Shown here: in pieces, positions 1,747-31,849 of the stretch
Numbering within the stretch: the stretch's first letter is position 1
How the letters are laid out: each line of letters starts with the position of its first letter
Source: a virus
Length of the DNA stretch: 31,849 nucleotides
Virus record (IMG/VR): IMGVR_UViG_3300009285_000224
Coordinates: 1-31,849 of that record
Strand: one strand, 5' to 3'
Translations under genes and position numbers: made by a program
The notes under the pieces: generated by a model
Databases searched by the model: none
What the model was told of the DNA's origin: nothing
Seen by the model: the letters and a program-made list of their open reading frames with translations, nothing else

Positions 1747-2444
1747 GAATCGGAATCGGTTGCACAACTTTCAACAGGGCAAAGCATTTAAAGTTTTGGA
1801 CAAAGCAATTTGTTTTTAATTCCAACTTTGATTATCAACTTCATATTGCCGATGACACCGAAGATCGAAAGGGTATAGCCTACCGAAAGAATGAATGTCT
1901 AAGGGCGTTAAAAGATTGTGATTATATTTTCCTGTTTGACGATGACTGCTTTCCGATTAAGGAGGGATGGGCAGAGTTCTTTATTGAAGCAAGTAAGGCA
2001 AGCGCGCAACAGCATTTCATGTATCTCAAGGAAACGCCTATGATAAAATGGATAGGGTCGAAACACGTAAACCCATCTGAAGCATTATATACAGAAAACA
2101 CATTTGAGATAAAACAATACAACAACTGTTCCGGCTGCATGATGTTCTTTACAAAAGAGGTTATCGAAAAGGTAGGATCGTACAATCCTGCATACGGCAT
2201 ATACGGATTTGAACACGCGGGATATTCCAACCGCATACATTCAGCGGGTCTTACACCGTTAGGCGCTTATACATGTCCGGAAGCAGCGGGAGAATATATT
2301 TATTCACTAGACTTTGACAACCACCTACTATTTAACAAGGAGTTGAACCACAACCCCTCAATAGAAGTTTCAAAGATTAATGAGTACGTAGAAGATAATA
2401 AAAAAATATATTTGAAGGACACAGATATATATATTCCACTTTAA
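1743..2444 (+). CDS. GT-A family glycosyltransferase (GT2-like)
   Basis: 233 aa. The N-terminus MRIGIGCTTFNRAKHL is the usual first strand and loop of GT2-type enzymes (strand, then T-x-N/D-R). DYIFLFDDDCF has an acidic DDD cluster at residues 66-68, the DxD-type site that binds the metal and nucleotide-sugar diphosphate. YGIYGFEHAGYSNRI near residues 150-165 matches the G-x-E-[DH] region that often supplies the catalytic base. The protein is cytoplasmic, with no membrane segment. It lies between two coupled genes, overlapping the 90-aa gene by ATGA and abutting the next gene with TAAATG. Donor and acceptor are unknown. It is shorter than typical GT2 enzymes, as phage versions often are. Confidence 0.8.
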   Translation: MRIGIGCTTFNRAKHLKFWTKQFVFNSNFDYQLHIADDTEDRKGIAYRKNECLRALKDCDYIFLFDDDCFPIKEGWAEFFIEASKASAQQHFMYLKETPMIKWIGSKHVNPSEALYTENTFEIKQYNNCSGCMMFFTKEVIEKVGSYNPAYGIYGFEHAGYSNRIHSAGLTPLGAYTCPEAAGEYIYSLDFDNHLLFNKELNHNPSIEVSKINEYVEDNKKIYLKDTDIYIPL

Positions 2445-3149
2445 ATGAGAATACTTTACAAGTTCGCCTCACGTTCTCGTCCAGAAAAGTTTATTAAATG
2501 CCTTGATAACATTATGACCAACCATCTTCATAAAGACTTTTTAATACTTGCTACCCTTGACGAAGATGACATTACTATGAACGATCCGGAGATGCGTCAG
2601 AAGATGGATGGGTACGACAAACTAAAATATATTTTCGGAAAGTCAGAGAACAAGGTTCATGCAGTGAACAAGGATATGGAGCACACTGGAGAGTGGGATA
2701 TACTTGTGGTGATGAGTGATGATATGCTATTTATACAAAAAGGGTTTGACAAAATAATCATAGACGCTTTTCGACATCCACACCCAGAGATAGTATTTGA
2801 CTTAGACCAGTTAATACATTTTCCTGACCAACACCAAGGGCGTAATTGCATGACCATGTATATAGCTGGAAGAATTTATTACGAGCGCGAAGGATTTATA
2901 TACGATCCACGCTGTAAGTCTTTATGGGTAGACATCATAAGCCAGGAGACAGGGCAGATACGGGGGAAGTATAAATTTATAAACGAGAGGATATTCAATC
3001 ACATTCATCCCTCTTTCATGGATTGTAAGTATGATGAGCAATATCTAAAAACCGAGTGCATGGAAATTAGGCAGCATGACTACGCAGTATATCGGACGGC
3101 TAAAATTGAATATGACAAAGAAAACATTCTACCAATAAGGAACCCATGA
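2445..3149 (+). CDS. GT-A-like glycosyltransferase
   Basis: 234 aa. MRILYKFASRSRPEKF is a nucleotide-binding first strand, and the S-R-x-R-P start is common in phage and capsule GT-A proteins. Acidic clusters occur at TLDEDD (about 38-42) and at WDILVVMSDDM (D92-D93), the second being the likely DxD-equivalent metal site. The C-terminal half contains several Cys and aromatic residues but no membrane segment. The start codon directly follows the previous stop, and the end overlaps the next gene by ATGA. The family call rests on the N-terminal pattern and the acidic motif. The sugar transferred is unknown. Confidence 0.72.
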   Translation: MRILYKFASRSRPEKFIKCLDNIMTNHLHKDFLILATLDEDDITMNDPEMRQKMDGYDKLKYIFGKSENKVHAVNKDMEHTGEWDILVVMSDDMLFIQKGFDKIIIDAFRHPHPEIVFDLDQLIHFPDQHQGRNCMTMYIAGRIYYEREGFIYDPRCKSLWVDIISQETGQIRGKYKFINERIFNHIHPSFMDCKYDEQYLKTECMEIRQHDYAVYRTAKIEYDKENILPIRNP

Positions 3150-3694
3150 AACTATCCATCCTTATTTCCTCCCTTGTTGGACGTTACTGCCAGCGCAACG
3201 ACCTAATTATCGCCCTACAAAAACAAGATTTAACTGGAGTAGAGATATTAACTGAAATAGATAGCGGGATAAACAGTATAGGGTATAAGCGTAATAAACT
3301 ACTCGACAGGGCCAAGGGGGAATATGTGGCATTCATTGACGATGATGACATGATAAGCTCGGACTACATTTATAAGATAATGTATGCGATAGAAAGCAAA
3401 CCGGATTGCTGTTCTTTGATGGGTGTTATATCATGGGATGGAAAGAACGAAGAAATATTTGAACACAGTATAAAGTATAAAGAGTATAAAACTACTAACA
3501 ACCCGATAAGGTATGAGCGTTACCCGAACCACTTAAATGTTATAAAGACTTCAATAGCAAAACAGTTCAAGTTTGAAGAGATTAATCACGGAGAAGATAC
3601 GGCTTGGGCTACGCAGATTTTCAAATCAGGATTAATAAAAACGGAGGCACCAATAGAAGGTGTGATATACCACTATCAATATAAAACCAAATGA
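3146..3694 (+). CDS. Short GT2 family glycosyltransferase
   Basis: 182 aa, one compact GT-A domain. MKLSILISSLVGR is the first strand. GINSIGYKRNKLLDRA then GEYVAFIDDDDMI (D65-D68) is the classic GT2 block, in which the RN-x5-A-x-GEY segment precedes the metal-binding Asp cluster. The C-terminal part (NHGEDTAWATQIFKSG) holds a G-E-D-T motif like the ED catalytic base pair of GT2 enzymes. This is the best-supported GT2 call in the block. It is about a third shorter than many family members and has no membrane anchor. Both ends overlap neighbours by ATGA. The likely role is NDP-sugar transfer in the pathway shared with its neighbours. Confidence 0.85.
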   Translation: MKLSILISSLVGRYCQRNDLIIALQKQDLTGVEILTEIDSGINSIGYKRNKLLDRAKGEYVAFIDDDDMISSDYIYKIMYAIESKPDCCSLMGVISWDGKNEEIFEHSIKYKEYKTTNNPIRYERYPNHLNVIKTSIAKQFKFEEINHGEDTAWATQIFKSGLIKTEAPIEGVIYHYQYKTK

Positions 3695-4566
3695 AGGCAA
3701 TATCATATTCCATTTTCGGTTATGACAGAGAGAGGGTGACAAATTGTTTTGATTTTAATTCTTACTTAAGGGGGCTTATGCTTTGCATTAGATTAAACCG
3801 ATTAATATACCCCGGGTGGCAAAACATTTTAAACACGGACTACGTTACCTATTCAGCTTTTGAACCGCTATTTAAGTATTTAGAAGACAGGAATATTTTA
3901 ATCATATACAAAAACAATAACGGGGCGCAACTTTGCGAGGCTATGTTATGGAGGTTAAAACCTCTTTACAAAAACGGGTACACACACGTTCTATGTAGAG
4001 ACCTTGACAGTCTTTCTACGTATAGGGAAAGACAAGCGGTTGATTACTGGATAGCTCAAGAAACAAAAGCAGCGCATGCAATTACAGACAGCGTGAGTCA
4101 CGATCTTCCCATGCTTGGTGGAATGATAGGATTTATAAGAGAGCATTTTACTACAAGAACAAACACGAATGATTATAACTCCTTGCTTAATCTAAAGCGC
4201 ATGGATTTTTCTGCTAAGGGTAGCGACCAGATATTTTTAAACAAAGCCCTTTATCCATTATTCGGAGAGAAAGGACACGATTCAATTACCCAGCATTACT
4301 TTAGCGGTCACAGCAATACCTTCCTTTCAGATTTCCATACTTGCGCTTGCCCGCCCCCTTCAGGCCACGCGGATAAATGCCCAAACAATTACAGGATAGA
4401 TTTACCTGATGAATTTAAAGAAAGTAATTCAATATGCGGTCATATTGGTGCCAGTGGGTGGTACGAAACTACTACCTTTAAGTTTCTTAGAAAATATTGG
4501 GATAGATTTACAGACCTTACCGAAATAGAAAAACAATATCCGCAAATCTTTTACTGGAATGGATGA
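3691..4566 (+). CDS. Glycosyltransferase-like protein with DxD motif
   Basis: 291 aa. The protein opens with AISYSIFGYDRERV and carries HVLCRDLDSLSTY around residues 99-111, in which D104-L-D106 is a DxD metal site followed by Ser. The sequence GGMIGF near residue 140 and a GHIGASGWYE stretch near the C-terminus resemble acceptor-side loops of GT-A enzymes that report on a 'core' sugar. A Cys-rich insert (HTCACPPPSGHADKC) lies near residues 215-228 and could bind a metal or form a disulfide-like knot. It overlaps the upstream gene by ATGA and the small downstream gene by 8 bases. The enzyme class is fairly likely; the specific family is not certain. Confidence 0.7.
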   Translation: MKAISYSIFGYDRERVTNCFDFNSYLRGLMLCIRLNRLIYPGWQNILNTDYVTYSAFEPLFKYLEDRNILIIYKNNNGAQLCEAMLWRLKPLYKNGYTHVLCRDLDSLSTYRERQAVDYWIAQETKAAHAITDSVSHDLPMLGGMIGFIREHFTTRTNTNDYNSLLNLKRMDFSAKGSDQIFLNKALYPLFGEKGHDSITQHYFSGHSNTFLSDFHTCACPPPSGHADKCPNNYRIDLPDEFKESNSICGHIGASGWYETTTFKFLRKYWDRFTDLTEIEKQYPQIFYWNG

Positions 4567-6083: not shown

Positions 6084-6952
6084 AACCCCTACACGAAGAT
6101 CAAATCCATAACGCTCCATTCATTGAGGCTTGTACCCATATTTGGAGTGACGATGTAAGCCGTTCACAGAAATCAGGAGTATGGGATTACTATCAGGCTA
6201 TCTCAAAGGAGTTTAACAAACCCTTAATAGATCACACTAACATCCCCCAAAAGGCGGTTATCTTTGTGGGGATGTGCCATATATTAGAATCTATATTTCA
6301 GGTAATTCCAACAAGCGGAGAATACATATTTATTCACCGCACGAATGACAGGCCATACACGGAGCAGATGAACGACTGCAAGCCCCTGTCTGTGAAGCAT
6401 GTTTATAGCTGCGACTGCAGAGTTTATGCCCAAGACGTATCTGCTATAATGTGGGGGAACGCTTCAGTAGGGGGGGAGGACAATATAGTAAAGCAGGTAG
6501 CGAATGAAGAAATAACACCAGCAGAAACTAAATTATTTGTTTGTTACAATGTGAACAGAGATACTCCCCAAAGAACCGAATCGCTACCTATATTAATAGG
6601 TAAACCATTTGCTAAAGTCATAGACACAAGAGAGAAAATATTCCCGATAGGCGCAGATGATTTTTATAGACAAGTTAAAGCACATAAGTTTACTATGTGT
6701 TTAGCCGGATGTAGTGCAGATGCTTCACGGCAATGGGCAGCTATTCAGTTAGGCTCTATTCCTATCGTAACGGACTGCCCGGAGATGCGACACTTTTCCG
6801 ACCTGCCTTTAATATTTTGCCCTAAAAATATCAATGACATAACAGAAGAGTGGTTAAGTTTGCAGAGTGTTGGAGGGAAGAGTACGGATAGGATGAGGGC
6901 GAGTTACTGGCAACAACACATAGGAGAAAACAGAACCTTTTACCATATATGA
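6080..6952 (+). CDS. Exostosin-like glycosyltransferase
   Basis: 290 aa. The ATG at 6080 is chosen because an AAGGAGA Shine-Dalgarno lies 8-14 bases upstream and it makes an ATGA overlap with the previous stop. The frame stays open to 6017 but only inside the neighbour. The C-terminal half holds the recognisable block: KFTMCLAGCSADASRQW, then GSIPIVTDCPEMRHF. That is the F-x-L-x-G-x2-D-x2-R-x-W-A/E and IPIV pattern of GT47/exostosin-type GT-B enzymes. FVCYNVNRDTPQR precedes it as an inter-domain strand. It is cytoplasmic. Its fold class differs from most others here, so the block holds both GT-A and GT-B enzymes. Confidence 0.72.
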   Translation: MKPLHEDQIHNAPFIEACTHIWSDDVSRSQKSGVWDYYQAISKEFNKPLIDHTNIPQKAVIFVGMCHILESIFQVIPTSGEYIFIHRTNDRPYTEQMNDCKPLSVKHVYSCDCRVYAQDVSAIMWGNASVGGEDNIVKQVANEEITPAETKLFVCYNVNRDTPQRTESLPILIGKPFAKVIDTREKIFPIGADDFYRQVKAHKFTMCLAGCSADASRQWAAIQLGSIPIVTDCPEMRHFSDLPLIFCPKNINDITEEWLSLQSVGGKSTDRMRASYWQQHIGENRTFYHI

Positions 6953-7566
6953 AAACAGTAGGAGGTCACACTTTTGACGAAACACTTTTAACCGATGGGG
7001 TTATTATTGATGTAGGTTGCAGAGATTTTTCTTTTTCAAACTACTTTGAAGGCAAACCTGTTTATTGTGTTGATCTTGATGCGAAAGTTTTTGATGGAGT
7101 AAAAAATAATTTTACACATATTAATTATGCCATATCCGACAAAGCGGGAGATTCAGAATACTACGAGAACGGAGAAGCCACTTGTCTCAAACAACTCCAT
7201 CATTACCAAGACCACCGCATCAAACCTTGCAAGACAATTACAATGGAAGATCTTTACAAAATAACAGGGGAAAACGTAGACATATTAAAGCTGGACTGCG
7301 AAGGGGCGGAGTATGCTATCCTTGGTGAAACCTTCCGACCTGTACCTAAACAGATCACCGTTGAATTTCATCATCATTGCGTACCGGAATTACACAAAGA
7401 TAAATATCAATCAATAGTTGAGCGGTTGATTAAAGATTATGCAATGCACAATGCAGTATGGGAGCAACGGCATGGATGTGGATTTAACTTTTGGGATACT
7501 TTGTTTATTCGCAAGGACATAGACCCTAATCATAAATTTGAATATTCAGAACCAACAAATTATTAA
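6949..7566 (+). CDS. FkbM family methyltransferase
   Basis: 205 aa. Class I SAM-dependent methyltransferase. Motif I is VIIDVGCRD (residues 18-26), followed by the acidic ribose-binding loop CVDLDAKVFDGV (from residue 40). The FkbM signature DILKLDCEGAEYAIL sits at 111-125, with the D-x-E-G-x-E residues of the family. The ending TVEFHHHC is the usual next strand. FkbM enzymes O-methylate sugars and polyketides, and next to glycosyltransferases the likely job is capping or decorating a glycan. It overlaps the upstream gene by ATGA and the next by TAATG. This is one of the safest calls in the block. Confidence 0.9.
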   Translation: MKTVGGHTFDETLLTDGVIIDVGCRDFSFSNYFEGKPVYCVDLDAKVFDGVKNNFTHINYAISDKAGDSEYYENGEATCLKQLHHYQDHRIKPCKTITMEDLYKITGENVDILKLDCEGAEYAILGETFRPVPKQITVEFHHHCVPELHKDKYQSIVERLIKDYAMHNAVWEQRHGCGFNFWDTLFIRKDIDPNHKFEYSEPTNY

Positions 7567-8048
7567 TGGTCATAGGAAGGGGAGATATTGGGAAGGAAAT
7601 TAAGGACCGTGAAGGGTTCTTATTCTATGTCAATGGGATAAGCAACCGCTATCCCATTACCGGCCTCTCCAAAGACAAAGAAGAGGAAGAGATACTCGCA
7701 CACGCGCGAACGCTGAAAATGTTCGTTTATATCAGCACCCTATCTATTTACTATTCATCCTCTGCCTACACTCAGCATAAGATACGGATGGAGCAGTTAA
7801 TAAAAACCAACTTTAGAAACTATTGCATACTTCGGATAGGTAATATTACTTGGGGGGATAATCCTAACACACTGATTAACCACCTGAAGGTAGACCGAAG
7901 TAGGATAGATGGAGTATTCAGATACCCTATTGAAAGGAAAGAATTTCAGCATTGGATAACAATGATACCTAATAAGGGAAAACACGAAATGAATCTAACA
8001 GGTTCAATGATGTCAGTACAAGAAATAGTAAACCAATATGTAGTATGA
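7566..8048 (+). CDS. Miniature NAD(P)-dependent epimerase/SDR-like protein
   Basis: 160 aa, about half the usual length of extended SDR sugar epimerases and dehydratases. G-R-G-D-I-G at residues 4-9 resembles the dinucleotide-binding loop, missing the preceding strand. VYISTLSIYYSSSAYTQHK holds Ser/Thr at 57-60 and Y68-x3-K72, the catalytic S-Y-K set. ILRIGNITWG is the usual following strand. The C-terminal substrate domain is mostly absent, leaving GVFRYPIERKEFQHWI. It may be an active mini-enzyme or a degenerate one. A nucleotide-sugar-modifying step would fit the neighbouring transferases. It overlaps upstream by TAATG and downstream by ATGA. Confidence 0.68.
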   Translation: MVIGRGDIGKEIKDREGFLFYVNGISNRYPITGLSKDKEEEEILAHARTLKMFVYISTLSIYYSSSAYTQHKIRMEQLIKTNFRNYCILRIGNITWGDNPNTLINHLKVDRSRIDGVFRYPIERKEFQHWITMIPNKGKHEMNLTGSMMSVQEIVNQYVV

Positions 8049-8617
8049 AACAAAAATTTACCCCCACCAACAATGACCTATCCTATTACCCCCTACTTTA
8101 CAAAGCGTTGGAAGCAACGAAAGGCGAAGTTATTGAGATGGGCACTGGGCATGGCTCCACTCCCTTACTCCATGAATACTGCACCAAATCTAAAAGGGTA
8201 CTCCACTCCTACGAAACGGAAAAAGAATGGCTATATAAGTTTGAAGATACGGCTAATGATTATCATACTTTTACTCTTTTGGATCGCTCTGCTTGGGATA
8301 GTTGTTCTAACCAGCATGCTTCCCCATCCGTAGTATTCATTGACCACGCACCCGGGGAGCGAAGGAAAGAAGATATTATTCGATTCAAATCCAAATCGGA
8401 TATTATAGTAATTCACGACACCGAACCGACAGGAGCCGGGGATTACCAAGTAAGGCAGCATTTCGGAAAGTTCAAATACTGCGTAGAGGTGCTAAGTAAC
8501 TGGCACGATCCCCGTGAAGCCGGAGCATGGGCCACAGCAGTAAGCGACACGATTGACATTACTAAATGGGTTGGTGAAAAATTCGGAGAGTACAAGATAT
8601 GGGAGCACCAGAAATAA
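8045..8617 (+). CDS. Class I SAM-dependent methyltransferase-like protein
   Basis: 190 aa. EVIEMGTGHGST (motif I, residues 28-39) is a glycine-rich SAM loop. SYETEKEW gives the acidic residue E57 at the end of the next strand. SVVFIDHAPGERR and DIIVIHDTEP follow as motif-like strands, with D100 and D125 as possible metal or substrate ligands. This layout is close to the small-molecule or sugar O-methyltransferases found in cell-surface polysaccharide clusters. There is no DNA-methylase N/DPPY motif. It starts in an ATGA overlap and ends 19 bases inside the next gene. The substrate is unknown. Confidence 0.75.
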   Translation: MKQKFTPTNNDLSYYPLLYKALEATKGEVIEMGTGHGSTPLLHEYCTKSKRVLHSYETEKEWLYKFEDTANDYHTFTLLDRSAWDSCSNQHASPSVVFIDHAPGERRKEDIIRFKSKSDIIVIHDTEPTGAGDYQVRQHFGKFKYCVEVLSNWHDPREAGAWATAVSDTIDITKWVGEKFGEYKIWEHQK

Positions 8618-28860: not shown

Positions 28861-29397
28861 ATGAACCAACAAGCCGCGAAAGCGCAAAATCAAATGACAC
28901 AAGAAAAAGAAAAGCATTGGAAAGATTTTTTTAATTACAAATACGCTGGAGGATATTTCCTGGATAAGTCTAAGGACTTGACAGTTGTAATTAATAAAAT
29001 TGTTATTGAGGAAGTGGTCGGGGCTAGCGGAAAAAAGCAGGATTGTCCGGTTTGCTATTTTGGCGGTTTGGAAAAGCCGATGATTTTAAACAAAACAAAT
29101 GCAAAGCAGATTGAAAAATTGTACGGAGAATCCAATCCAGACAAATGGGTTGGTAAAAAAATAATAGTTTATTCGACTAAAGTAGACGCATGGGGATCGG
29201 TTGTTGACGCATGGCGAGTCAGGGACTTCAAACCGGAATCGCAGCAGATAGATAACAAGGCTGCTTTAGAATTGATTGCATCGAGTAAGACGTTCTCTGA
29301 ATTACAAGCTAATTATACTTCTCTTAGTAAGGAACTTAAAGCTGATCCGGAAGTAATGAAAAAGAAGGACGAAATGAAAACCGCTTTAGGCAAATGA
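28861..29397 (+). CDS. Conserved phage protein beside exonuclease
   Basis: 178 aa. The middle MILNKTNAKQIEKLYGES then PDKWVGKKIIVYSTKVDAWG and VVDAWRVRDFKP is a pattern I associate with conserved phage proteins encoded beside recombination exonucleases. CPVC near residue 60 may bind metal. The C-terminus is a helical hairpin (FSELQANYTSLSKELK). It overlaps the YqaJ-type exonuclease gene by ATGA, so a role in recombination or DNA protection is likely, for example as a single-strand-binding partner. The biochemical role is not established by sequence. Confidence 0.6.
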   Translation: MNQQAAKAQNQMTQEKEKHWKDFFNYKYAGGYFLDKSKDLTVVINKIVIEEVVGASGKKQDCPVCYFGGLEKPMILNKTNAKQIEKLYGESNPDKWVGKKIIVYSTKVDAWGSVVDAWRVRDFKPESQQIDNKAALELIASSKTFSELQANYTSLSKELKADPEVMKKKDEMKTALGK

Positions 29398-30014
29398 GAA
29401 TCCACAAAGTAGAACAAGGCTCAGACGCATGGAAGCGAATCCGTCTTGGCAAAATCTCAGGAACACGTATCAAAGATGTTTTCAAATCTGATAACCTAGG
29501 ACTGATTGACGAACTCATTGCCGAATCAATATCGGACGAAATTGAAGAGGATGGATTTATTAATGAAGCCATGCAACGCGGGATTGATTACGAGCCACTT
29601 GCCAGAAAAGAATACGAGAAACGAACAGGATTAAAGGTTGAGCAGTTCGGTTTCTTGGAACATTCTAAATATGATTGGCTCGGATTCTCTCCAGACGGAT
29701 TGGTAAAAGACGGTAATGGGAAATATACTCATGCTATTGAAATAAAATGCCCTAATACATCTACGCACGTAAAATATATTCGTATGGGCGGGATTCCAAA
29801 TGAATACAAGTATCAGATATTCGGGGCTTTTATTGTATGTCAGGACTTAATGTCTTTGGATTTTATCAGCTATGATACTCGCTTTGGGATTAAACCGATG
29901 CACATTTATACCATCAGACGAGAGGATATATTCAAAGAAATTTCCGAAACCGAATCCGGGCTATTAAAGTTTATAGAAAAATATAATAAATACTATGAGC
30001 AAATTGTTATATAA
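29394..30014 (+). CDS. YqaJ/lambda-exonuclease-type nuclease
   Basis: 206 aa. QGSDAWKRIRLGKISGTRI (from residue 8) is the W-x2-I/L-R-x-G-x-I-[ST]-[GA] start of the YqaJ family. RGIDYEPLAR (E67), FSPDGLV (D101), AIEIKCP (E116, K118) and YQIFGAF (Q141) are the catalytic set of the PD-(D/E)xK fold. It would degrade one strand of linear dsDNA to give 3' overhangs for annealing. Length matches the family. The preceding gene is its likely partner; no separate annealing protein is visible in the window. Confidence 0.88.
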   Translation: MRIHKVEQGSDAWKRIRLGKISGTRIKDVFKSDNLGLIDELIAESISDEIEEDGFINEAMQRGIDYEPLARKEYEKRTGLKVEQFGFLEHSKYDWLGFSPDGLVKDGNGKYTHAIEIKCPNTSTHVKYIRMGGIPNEYKYQIFGAFIVCQDLMSLDFISYDTRFGIKPMHIYTIRREDIFKEISETESGLLKFIEKYNKYYEQIVI

Positions 30015-30085
30015 ACGCAACCAGCCCTGCATATTGTCAAGCCCTTGTTAATGGCTGGGCAGGCGGGCTGTTAAAACTCAAAACT
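30015..30085 (+). repeat. Palindromic intergenic spacer E1
   Basis: CAGCCC-TGC (30022-30030) can pair with GCA (30059-30061) and GGGCTG (30065-30070), leaving a GGC bulge; CCAGCC/GGCTGG is an alternative stem. It contains GTTAATGGCTGG and ends in a leader rich in AAAACT-type bases just before the ATG at 30086. The block GGCTGG-N7-GGCTGT-N-AAA is shared with spacer E4 near 31196. Confidence 0.55.
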
Positions 30086-30295
30086 ATGGAAAACGAAATT
30101 GAATATTGGATTGCTTGTGGTAAATTTGGAAATCATCAAGAACCAGAACAAAGAATTTATACAGAATTATTAATAGGCGATTATGTATGTTTTGAAGATG
30201 ATGAAAAGGATGATATACGATGTAAGGTTATAGAAAGATTTTTTGATGCGAGAAGTAATCAATTTATTTTTTATGTAAAAAAAGTAAAAGTATAA
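30086..30295 (+). CDS. Small hypothetical protein, 69 aa
   Basis: No family recognised. The protein is acidic in the middle and looks like a small beta-barrel: EYWIACGKFGNHQEP, LLIGDYVCFEDDEKDDIRC, RSNQFIFYVKKVKV. No Cys pair or membrane segment. It is bounded by palindromic spacers on both sides, so it stands as a single-ORF unit. The DNA is more A/T-rich than the virion region. Confidence 0.55.
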   Translation: MENEIEYWIACGKFGNHQEPEQRIYTELLIGDYVCFEDDEKDDIRCKVIERFFDARSNQFIFYVKKVKV

Positions 30296-30416
30296 TAGTG
30301 GTTGGCTGTTACGCCTGCCTTGCCAATAACGAAAAAGTATTGTGGCAGTTGCTTTGAATTGCCACAATACTATGTTAGCAGTAGTTAAAATTTGCCAAAC
30401 TAAAAACATAAATAGA
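30296..30416 (+). repeat. Palindromic intergenic spacer E2
   Basis: AGTATTGTGGCA (30336-30347) and TGCCACAATACT (30360-30371) are a perfect 12-bp stem with a 12-base loop. Outside it, TAAC (30327-30330) and GTTA (30374-30377) form a second pairing, with 5 unpaired bases on the left and 2 on the right. The spacer starts with GGTTGGCTGTTA and ends in a leader AACTAAAAACATAAATAG before the next ATG. No ORF that looks real crosses it. Confidence 0.65.
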
Positions 30417-30617
30417 ATGACACCAGAAAAAAATTGTTTAAGATGTGGAAAGCCAGAAAGCCAACACTACGAAAAAGATAATTGGAATTGCTATACTTGG
30501 GACAATTTTTTTCTTGAGATAGCAAAATTACATTACTCGGAAAGAGTACAATGGGCAAAAGATAATTATACTGTGCCGATACCCAAAAAAGAACATTACA
30601 CACTCAAAATAAAATGA
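30417..30617 (+). CDS. Small zinc-finger-like protein, 66 aa
   Basis: Start at 30417, since the frame upstream only covers the palindrome. NCLRCGKPESQHYEKDNWNC holds Cys7, Cys10, His17 and Cys25, a plausible zinc site. The rest is aromatic and helical (YTWDNFFLEIAKLHY). Role unknown. It overlaps the next gene by ATGA, so the two form a pair within one unit bounded by spacers E2 and E3. Confidence 0.58.
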   Translation: MTPEKNCLRCGKPESQHYEKDNWNCYTWDNFFLEIAKLHYSERVQWAKDNYTVPIPKKEHYTLKIK

Positions 30618-30838
30618 TAAAAACAAAACAACCTCAATTAGAACAAATGATAGAAGCAACTTGCGACAGTTGTGGAAATCAAATACCAATTCAATTTGGA
30701 AACTTAGCAGACCATTTAAGAATTGGAGGACACCATAACGGCAAGTTATTGGATGGAATTGTTTGCATAAAATGTATGGAAGAAAAATTAGGTTTCATAA
30801 AAATACAACGAAATACTAATACAATAGGATACTGCTAA
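30614..30838 (+). CDS. Four-Cys zinc-binding small protein, 74 aa
   Basis: Cys17-x2-Cys20 (ATCDSCGNQ) and Cys51-x2-Cys54 (VCIKCMEEKLGF) make a four-Cys zinc site, with LRIGGHHNGKLLDGI between. The ending IQRNTNTIGYC is distinctive, and I recall similar short proteins in environmental Bacteroidetes DNA. No catalytic motif. Coupled to the preceding gene by ATGA. Function unknown. Confidence 0.6.
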   Translation: MIKTKQPQLEQMIEATCDSCGNQIPIQFGNLADHLRIGGHHNGKLLDGIVCIKCMEEKLGFIKIQRNTNTIGYC

Positions 30839-30917
30839 TTGCCCATTTTAATTTTGGGTAACACAGGCATAACCGATGTGTGTGGAGAAAAAGATACAAA
30901 CTGAAAACTTAAATAAA
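30839..30917 (+). repeat. Intergenic spacer E3 (partial palindrome)
   Basis: Short arms CCCA/TGGG lie near 30842-30858. GCATAACCG near 30868 matches GCATAACGG in E4, but the matching right half is not seen, so this spacer looks degraded or incomplete. A leader ACTTAAATAAA precedes the ATG at 30918. Confidence 0.4.
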
Positions 30918-31094
30918 ATGACACAAGAAGAAAAAATGAAAATCTTTAGTTACGAAAAATCATTAGAAGCACTAAAGATTTATTTGAAACTGACAAGACA
31001 AATTATGCCAGCATTGGCAGATGAAAAAGACCGAAGAACAGTTTTTTCATTCAATGAGGATATAGAAAACAAACTTAAAAAACTCGAAACTTAA
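30918..31094 (+). CDS. Small helical protein, 58 aa
   Basis: Start chosen at the ATG at 30918 after an A-rich leader; the frame reaches 30876 only through spacer sequence. The product is charged and helical (KMKIFSYEKSLEALKIYLKL, ENKLKKLET), with no Cys pair or membrane segment. It stands alone between spacers E3 and E4. Function unknown. Confidence 0.52.
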   Translation: MTQEEKMKIFSYEKSLEALKIYLKLTRQIMPALADEKDRRTVFSFNEDIENKLKKLET

Positions 31095-31234
31095 TGGCGC
31101 ATTTTTATTGCATAACGGTTCGCAGCCTTGCGTCAATAGGGTTGCAATCCCGAACAATGACAAGGCAACCCTATTGCGACAAGGGTGCTGTTATTGGCTG
31201 GTTGGCGCGGCTGTAAATTTTAAAAACTAAAAAC
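31095..31234 (+). repeat. Palindromic intergenic spacer E4
   Basis: The largest palindrome in the window. CAATAGGGTTGC (31134-31145) pairs perfectly with GCAACCCTATTG (31165-31176). Outside lie GCAGCCTTG (31122-31130) and CAAGGGTGC (31180-31188), with one mismatch, then ATAAC (31112-31116) and GTTAT (31190-31194), separated by 5 unpaired bases on the left and 1 on the right. The nested arms with asymmetric bulges look like a folded attC site. It is followed by GGCTGG...GGCTGT and an AAAACTAAAAAC leader. Confidence 0.7.
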
Positions 31235-31381
31235 ATGGAACTAAAAGAAGTTGCAAATCACATCGCTGAAAAAGTTATTCATGAAATAAATTTTTATCAG
31301 CAATCTGTCAAAGGCGATTTGCCATATAAAAAACAGGAAGTTCTCGAAGAACTTATAAAAATATTACAAGAAAAAGTATGA
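31235..31381 (+). CDS. Small helical protein, 48 aa
   Basis: 48 codons from the ATG at 31235, after an A-rich leader. The product (MELKEVANHIAEKVIHEINF, then QEVLEELIKILQEKV) is wholly helical and amphipathic, with alternating charges. No motif. It overlaps a further ORF by ATGA (31378). Support is from the leader, the overlap and the clean start. Function unknown. Confidence 0.5.
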   Translation: MELKEVANHIAEKVIHEINFYQQSVKGDLPYKKQEVLEELIKILQEKV

Positions 31382-31557
31382 GAAGATTCTGTAAATATAA
31401 TTTGATAGGTGGTGGAGTTCTCTGCGTCATAAAAAAACGCAAAGAATACATTGATTGCTTTGTAACAAATTCCGCCTTAGAAATATTTTATCTGTCTCTT
31501 TATTTTTTCGGAAGTTTCCGGCATTATCGGCCAGATCATCACCGCGATGTGCCTTAA
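31378..31557 (+). CDS. Small ORF crossing the probable junction
   Basis: The ORF starts in an ATGA overlap with the previous gene and its first ~37 residues (RRFCKYNLIGGGVLCVIKKR then KEYIDCFVTNSALEIFY) look like protein. The remainder (from about 31490) is antisense to the metG fragment and reads like shadow sequence. The simplest view is a real small phage gene whose 3' end was lost at a join. Confidence in the 3' half is low. Confidence 0.35.
   Translation: MRRFCKYNLIGGGVLCVIKKRKEYIDCFVTNSALEIFYLSLYFFGSFRHYRPDHHRDVP
31470..31500. other. Probable chimeric junction
   Basis: Left of here the DNA is A/T-rich, + strand and phage-like. Right of here it is visibly more GC-rich and encodes MetRS on the - strand. 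MetRS similarity stops at MPETSEKI, and the reading frame closes a few residues later, which places the join at about 31480-31500. Base-level placement is approximate. Confidence 0.6.
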
Positions 31558-31849
31558 CGCCTCGGCCAAATGGTGCAACATGTCGCAGACTTCCTTGTTT
31601 TTTCCGGCTTTTATCATCGCCCACGGCTGGTTGTCGGAAATCATCTGATCGCAATAGGCGATAAATTTCCACACGTTTTCCAGCGCGCGGTCAAAACGCC
31701 AAATTTTCATCGCCTCATTGTATTCGTCGGCGATTTTTTTGGTAAAATTAATTATTTCGTTATTTACTTCAACTGTTTCCGGGACAACACCGTCACAATA
31801 TTTTTCAATCATGACTAAAATTCGATTGGTAAGGTTTCCAATGCCATTC
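31477..31849 (-). pseudogene. metG: Methionyl-tRNA synthetase C-terminal fragment, partial
   Basis: The - strand frame is open from the window edge: NGIGNLTNRILVMIEKY, then NEAMKIWRFDRALENVWKFI, DNQPWAMIKAG and RHIAVMIWPIMPETSEKI. This is the helical anticodon-binding domain of MetRS, with the G-N-L-x-N-R-x-L-x-M-I-E-K-Y start and the P-W-x(n)-P-x-M-P-E-T-[AS]-x-K-I end. The usual 20-30 residues after ETSEKI are replaced by KRQIKYF and a stop. The gene is cellular, not phage. It is cut at both ends, more GC-rich than the rest, and convergent to the phage genes. It could be a prophage flank, but the loss of the C-terminus suggests an assembly join. Confidence 0.85.

Follow-up and report, generated by a model that had tools for sequence, protein, structure and literature searches.

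Probable integron-like gene cassettes in a viral contig and a related family of hairpin sites in Bacteroidota and their phages

Introduction

Integrons (IntI, attI, attC) spread antibiotic resistance, and they include large sedentary chromosomal ones, for example that of Vibrio cholerae. The locus described here raises the question of whether a run of very small genes in a virus is organized along similar lines. The window, i.e., the whole 31,849-nt stretch of DNA that was analyzed, is a linear IMG/VR virus entry and possibly a fragment. Downstream of a YqaJ-type exonuclease gene it holds five small open reading frames (ORFs), none with a confident family match, and four spacers (E1–E4), which a first-pass annotation from the sequence alone had read as folded attC-like sites between mobile cassettes. 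Here, we find this interpretation supported by recurrence of the sites, covariation of their stems, matched ends within units, exact unit boundaries, and a recombinase at array ends, although the observation on which it was built is only partly confirmed. We conclude that the array is very probably a short run of integron-like gene cassettes of Bacteroidota and their phages.

Results

Features of the window array

The features along positions 29394–31849 are as follows.

29394..30014, + strand: YqaJ-type exonuclease gene (Pfam YqaJ, E=2e-27; PHROG exonuclease), the last clear phage gene 5' of the array
30038..30050, + strand: E1, right half of a recombination site (CAAGCCCTTGTTA), by sequence; no left arm seen
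30047..30330, + strand: cassette 1, from GTTA to TAAC; its own two ends match at 11/13 positions, P~0.001
30086..30295, + strand: cassette 1 ORF, 69 aa; no family match
30327..30377, + strand: E2, a recombination site judged by its architecture; begins with TAACG, ends with TGTTA, and has a stem of 12 bp with 5 + 2 unpaired bases
30417..30617, + strand: small ORF, 66 aa; no family match (Pfam)
30614..30838, + strand: small ORF, 74 aa, with cysteine pairs, zinc-ribbon-like; Pfam matches weak and sub-threshold only
30839..30917, + strand: E3 spacer, perhaps a decayed site; fold z -1.10, TAACC, no right arm, ends not clearly matched
30918..31094, + strand: small ORF, 58 aa; no family match
31113..31193, + strand: E4, recombination site, supported by a two-arm profile score of 42 bits and by its folding
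31157..31216, + strand: short reading frame that begins in the E4 loop and crosses the right arm (MTRQPYCDKGAVIGWLARL); resembles the N-termini of phage cassette proteins
31235..31381, + strand: small ORF after E4, 48 aa; no family match
31477..31849, - strand: methionyl-tRNA synthetase, C-terminal part; only weakly related to Bacteroidota ones

The four spacers differ in how well they represent the site family defined below. E4 (TAACGGTTCGCAGCCTTGCG...CGACAAGGGTGCTGTTA) is a strong member, with a DNA folding z of -3.48 and 0/200 shuffles as good. E2 reads TAAC-GAAAA-AGTATTGTGGCA...TGCCACAATACT-AT-GTTA, in which 12 bp pair perfectly and 5 and 2 bases stay unpaired, and is the top TAAC-N-stem-N-GTTA structure of the entire window on either strand (DNA folding z -2.35); it is assigned by structure because its arms differ in sequence from the family profile, and is thus a member by architecture alone. 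E1 is half a site, having a right arm only (z -0.58), of the same type as the CAAGCCC(T/C)TGTTA-type right arms in the related phage L327. E3 lacks a right arm and carries TAACC where the family has an invariant TAACG, and its membership is unproven. The strong palindromes that had been described for E1, E2, and E4 therefore hold for E2 and E4 and not for E1. The design described for E2 and E4, with 5 bases unpaired on the left and 1–2 on the right, is upheld by the covariation of the site family. GGCTGG-N7-GGCTGT is indeed common to E1 and E4, but the N-AAA reported to follow it is exact in E1 only, and the A-rich leaders ahead of the ATG codons are present as described.

The array has the phage type of orientation, and a cassette recombinase is absent from the window's 31.8 kb. 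The earlier description of cassettes at a phage end without an integrase is thus right about the window's lack of a recombinase, which bacterial arrays do have, but the phage end itself is open to doubt, since the final ~400 bases have a foreign appearance. They are probably either foreign or a chimeric join: the methionyl-tRNA synthetase fragment shares only 15–30% identity with its matches in eight array-bearing genomes, and its presence at the contig end possibly reflects a chimeric assembly or a host of another phylum. Neither the YqaJ gene nor the exact E4 leader has close relatives in the viral contigs searched, and Rfam returned nothing relevant in the window.

A recurrent site family with a covarying hairpin

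BLAST of E4 against phage and plasmid records gave no match, so that a pattern search was needed, and the first one used a 20-base pattern taken from the E4 left arm. The pattern is found in 51 viral contigs, in most of which the right arm matches as well, and a stricter version returned at least 119 bacterial loci, nearly all from Bacteroidota, Ignavibacteria, or Chlorobi. Some matches, in Lentisphaeria and similar contigs and including ~7 viral ones, lack the right arm and are chance matches. With a two-arm profile and a threshold of 24 bits, 1.3 Mb of sequence yields ~300 sites and a Markov-shuffled background yields 2; since the loci were fetched by pattern, this count is no estimate of abundance, and the tests that follow are independent of it. 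The recurrence in Bacteroidetes genomes and phages that had been proposed as a check is therefore found in both.

The sites take the form of a hairpin, TAACG...GTTA, with 5 bases unpaired on the left and 1–2 on the right, and its invariant columns are AACG in the left part and TT in the right. In a set of 50 sites that resemble one another by less than 80%, pairing is seen in 91% of cells, and there are 185 double changes, compared with 64 in shuffled and 14–43 in slid controls, which indicates that the hairpin is kept by compensatory change. Like attC, the family is therefore an imperfect palindrome conserved in structure over sequence. The departure of the R-box from RYYYAAC/GTTRRRY, which had been pointed out for the window, is a property of the whole family, where conservation is limited to GTTA and a GC that follows four bases later, the three bases between them being free.

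Cassette units and the exchange point

Neighboring sites are co-oriented in 156/157 cases, and the bases after the GTTA of one site complement the bases before the TAACG of the next. This match amounts to 0.74–0.84 at the first five positions (0–4), compared with 0.26–0.59 in shuffled pairs, then drops to 0.50 at the sixth, gives way to a constant mismatch at the seventh, and returns to 0.65–0.71 at four more. The seventh base is G opposite T in bacterial and phage cassettes and in the window unit at 30047–30330 alike. The two flanks of one single site match no better than shuffles; because the match is found within the unit and not across the site, the matched ends belong to the unit between sites. 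An integron cassette likewise owns its R-boxes. In the window, the start of cassette 1 (GTTA-ATGGCTGGGCAGGCG) and its reverse-complemented end (GTTA-TTGGCAAGGCAGGCG) agree at the 11 of 13 scored positions given above, with the P value computed against shuffled cassette ends; this is the sole such case, as the later window units have no demonstrable matched ends.

Duplicated units locate the boundaries precisely. In bacterial locus L183, a 947-bp unit is present twice with 100% identity between unrelated neighbors, and the identity takes in the left hairpin, beginning within one base of the left TAACG and ending in the right TAACG. In a second genome (L149, L180, L181, L095), copies of a 437–439-bp unit at ~90% identity have the same boundaries. 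Judged from these copies, the mobile unit is a hairpin plus its segment, and exchange falls in TAACG, which is CG|TTA on the other strand. Exchange had initially been placed at the right arm, as the site was then delimited, and comparison of the duplicated L183 unit moved it to TAACG. The family thus has, by sequence comparison only, the G|TT exchange and the cassette-borne R-box halves of integrons.

These features extend to arrays of chromosomal scale. In G002 (CP058707, 'Bacteroidota bacterium isolate SSA2', the genome of L071), 258 sites, all in one orientation, span 3,478,852–3,982,497 (503 kb), and the array ends 3.3 kb before the recombinase; four control stretches hold no sites. At least 8 of 10 terminal bases match in 127/257 of its units, compared with 1.6% in shuffles, and 170 cassette pairs are more than 90% identical.

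A tyrosine recombinase at the end of bacterial arrays

Bacterial arrays end at a tyrosine recombinase of ~345–380 residues, which reads in the same direction as the cassette genes (exception L185). The matched end of the last unit lies between the last hairpin and the recombinase in 6/7 arrays, about 95–175 bp from the recombinase in 5/7, which makes this place beside the recombinase a candidate attI position. As a safeguard against selection through the site pattern, another set of recombinase loci was assembled from a protein search alone; in 8/12 of them, the expected side carries a site no more than 1.5 kb away. The 13 wider stretches contain 31 sites, of which 29 lie 3' of the recombinase, each of them convergent with it, and 2 lie on its opposite side. 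Among 296 genomes from the phylum of genome G016, the strict pattern occurs in 31 (44 matches; 2 for the reversed control), the recombinase (E<=1e-60) in 95, and both in 20 (co-occurrence P=1.4e-4); with these arbitrary, strict thresholds, 75/95 recombinase-positive genomes are without the strict pattern and 11/31 pattern-positive genomes without the recombinase.

In a phylogenetic tree, this recombinase stands apart from the Xer proteins (XerC/XerD) of its hosts, with IntI1 next to it (support 0.89). The predicted structure (mean pLDDT 79) most resembles the integron integrase 2A3V and XerA, with a pTM of 0.51 that leaves the domain arrangement uncertain. The array recombinases carry an N-terminal extension of ~75 residues, and IntI1 residues 207–249 are absent from those aligned; correspondingly, 2A3V residues 180–241 face only 20 residues. 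This insertion is said to be essential in IntI, and an 'integron-like' recombinase subgroup in which it is not fully conserved is already known (PMC8138268). Without it, recombination of a folded single strand is not a given for the array enzyme. With NF040815, 4/6 array-end recombinases score 218–234 bits, near the cut-off of 220. TIGR02249 has no match over its cut-off in 18 array-bearing genomes; as a discriminator it proved unusable alone, with matches in 14/14 control genomes. On the Chryseobacterium plasmid NZ_CP041688 (L213, 12001–14530), sites and small cargo genes come after a complete recombinase, and the system is therefore also plasmid-borne.

Phage cassettes are mirror images of bacterial ones

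The viral contigs examined are real phages, encoding a portal protein, a primase-helicase, and a DnaB helicase, and they include DNA methyltransferase cassettes. In decided cases, viral genes run in the same direction as the site 39 times and against it once, whereas bacterial genes do so 2 and 82 times, respectively; the site is therefore 3' of the gene in bacteria, as in integrons, and 5' in phages, whose cassettes are mirror images of the bacterial ones. In 30/87 phage sites, a reading frame starts at an internal ATG, crosses the right arm with GTT as a codon, and continues into the cassette, giving, for example, the N-terminus MIDIALKPHYCKTDVSGS in a phage DNA methyltransferase; the corresponding frame of E4 stops after 19 codons. 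The right-arm frames are distributed 30/16/8 in phages and 31/37/21 in bacteria, and because the bias is present in phages and absent in bacteria, the in-site start is not a general feature of the sites.

The closest relative that a terminase search recovered (73% identity; the genes are colinear) carries three sites in roughly the corresponding place, but its cassettes differ from those of the window. The first-pass annotation had suggested looking for such differences among relatives. Both complete cassettes of this relative have ends matched at 17/20 bases, and a protein encoded in one of its cassettes (MARVITFSRKFPSYHP...) is similar, judged by eye, to one from a cassette of phage contig L019 (MAKVITFSRTFPAYHP...). 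Two phage loci, L042 (reverse strand, 1881–4107) and L004 (reverse strand, 6701–8341), encode a tyrosine recombinase of ~250–273 aa downstream of a same-strand site. These shorter proteins are perhaps phage-owned enzymes of the system, in which case use of a host enzyme may not be general among phages; a search for further phage-borne recombinases recovered the query alone.

Resistance genes at a putative first-cassette position

Truncated copies of the recombinase occur next to resistance genes on plasmids. The Acinetobacter plasmid p80-1-2-tetX3 (L215, 5004–7180) has a truncated recombinase, an attI-like junction, tet(X3), and a truncated site, and the Klebsiella plasmid p2 (L216, 5142–6763) has a truncated copy directly before blaVEB-3; the junctions read ...CACTTG|TTATGTGCC and ...GGGAG|TTAGCGG. 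A Bacteroides tet(X2) region is homologous to that of tet(X3) from ~8 bases before the same point, and its end reads GGCACATAAC-hairpin, complementary to the GTTATGTGCC with which tet(X3) begins. Family sites also occur at L220 (7008–8628), L221 (5000–7434), L217 (3974–4101), and L219 (749–3939), the contexts of these four loci being Bacteroides tet(X2), a Riemerella tet(X)/estT/APH/OXA cluster and small plasmid, and a Salmonella plasmid with estT.

The accessible portions of two papers describe xerD/tpnF-tet(X3)-res-ISCR2 modules of Acinetobacter, ascribe their movement to ISCR2, and place the origin of tet(X) in the Flavobacteriaceae; those portions make no mention of cassette sites (PMC7530245, PMC7722449). 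Compared with that description, 'xerD/tpnF' is a truncated member of the array recombinase family, and tet(X3) occupies the place of a first cassette. We infer that tet(X2), tet(X3), and blaVEB-3, which are positioned as cassettes of the system would be, may have been captured by it.

Discussion

In the reading that we favor, each cassette consists of a small gene and one hairpin site of about 50–190 bases. Sequence comparison establishes the cassette units and where they end, the conservation of the hairpin, the uniform orientation within an array, and the presence of the recombinase gene next to bacterial arrays; how the system operates is inferred. A dedicated IntI/XerA-like tyrosine recombinase would recognize the hairpin, as a folded single strand by analogy with attC, and would excise cassettes as circles in which the two cassette ends pair. 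The circles would then be inserted at an attI-like point about 75–175 bp past the recombinase stop codon. As it lacks a recombinase, the window phage would use the enzyme of its host and act as a carrier of cassettes. Since about a third of phage cassettes start translation inside the site, an inserted cassette can bring its own start.

Hairpins between small genes may also be ordinary transcription terminators or RNA structures in an immobile array, and the hairpins in question are indeed intergenic and fold well. We consider this extremely unlikely, because a terminator would not account for matched ends that belong to the unit rather than to the hairpin, identical units that begin and end in TAACG amid unrelated sequence, the recombinase that marks the ends of arrays, or a hairpin whose place relative to the gene is 5' in phages but 3' in bacteria. 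The complementary ends of each unit could instead be the terminal inverted repeats (GTTANNNGC...GCNNNTAAC) of short transposons moved by another enzyme and placed in tandem by chance. Such elements would hardly be arranged head-to-tail in one orientation over hundreds of kilobases; moreover, the hairpin common to the units moves with them, no target is duplicated, and the recombinase lies outside the units at one array end, making this explanation highly unlikely as well.

The arrays could also be classical integrons or CALINs with divergent attC sites that standard software would find. They share with these the grammar of cassette, hairpin, and G|TT exchange, and structurally the recombinase comes closest to 2A3V; integrons have been reported from Chlorobi, Ignavibacteriae, and Salinibacter, with single cases only in Bacteroidota (PMC9024848), and classical attC sites from a Polaribacter phage (PMC9892861). 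Against this stand the missing IntI insertion, the lack of TIGR02249 matches over the cut-off in the 18 array-bearing genomes, an R-box that is not GTTRRRY, 5 versus 1–2 unpaired bases, and a recombinase that reads in the cassette direction, and our two-arm profile has no match to the Polaribacter phage P12002L. We therefore regard a classical integron as improbable. Beyond the integron-like reading of the window, we think it rather probable that the arrays form a separate, phylum-wide integron-like class with its own recombinase lineage, arrays of up to half a megabase, and a mirrored phage branch whose cassettes supply the start codon, and that this class has been directly involved in capturing mobile resistance genes such as tet(X) and blaVEB.

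If so, much of the phylum and many of its phages would exchange genes by a system that integron software would probably miss, which would account for the scattered occurrence of small accessory genes and of DNA methyltransferases among Bacteroidota phages and add a ~500-kb array to the catalog. The need for the IntI insertion in hairpin recombination would become testable. For tet(X) and blaVEB, whose later dissemination is attributed to ISCR elements, capture as cassettes would provide the initial step that has been missing.

Apparently, the hairpin family is a large, undescribed group of gene-cassette recombination sites with its own recombinase and site design; 'undescribed' is provisional and refers to the open-access literature, preprints and most subscription journals being outside its scope. 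Among known systems, integrons are closest, with tandem cassettes in one orientation, a covarying cassette-borne hairpin, paired cassette ends, duplicated cassettes, a G|TT exchange point, and a tyrosine recombinase with a putative insertion point at one array end, the last found in the bacterial arrays and not in the window. The array recombinase differs from theirs in lacking the IntI insertion, in its N-terminal extension, and in reading in the direction of the cassettes, where an integron integrase is divergent from them; the sites differ in their R-box (GTTANNNGC with a free NNN) and their 5 and 1–2 unpaired bases, and phage cassettes are mirrored. The system would thus work like an integron, yet under a strict definition it is not one: it lacks the IntI insertion, departs from the R-box consensus, and has a recombinase that reads in another direction than an integron integrase. 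The window resembles CALINs, including phage ones (PMC9892861), in having cassettes with structured sites and, within a linear record that may be a fragment, no recombinase, but its sites are of a different family, the bacterial arrays do have a recombinase, and the orientation of gene to site is inverted in phages. Finally, the array recombinase approaches the XerA/IntI-like 'simple' tyrosine recombinases (NF040815) in its near-cut-off scores and fold, and is distinguished from that group by its N-terminal extension and its association with cassette arrays, while being separate from the XerC/XerD of its hosts.
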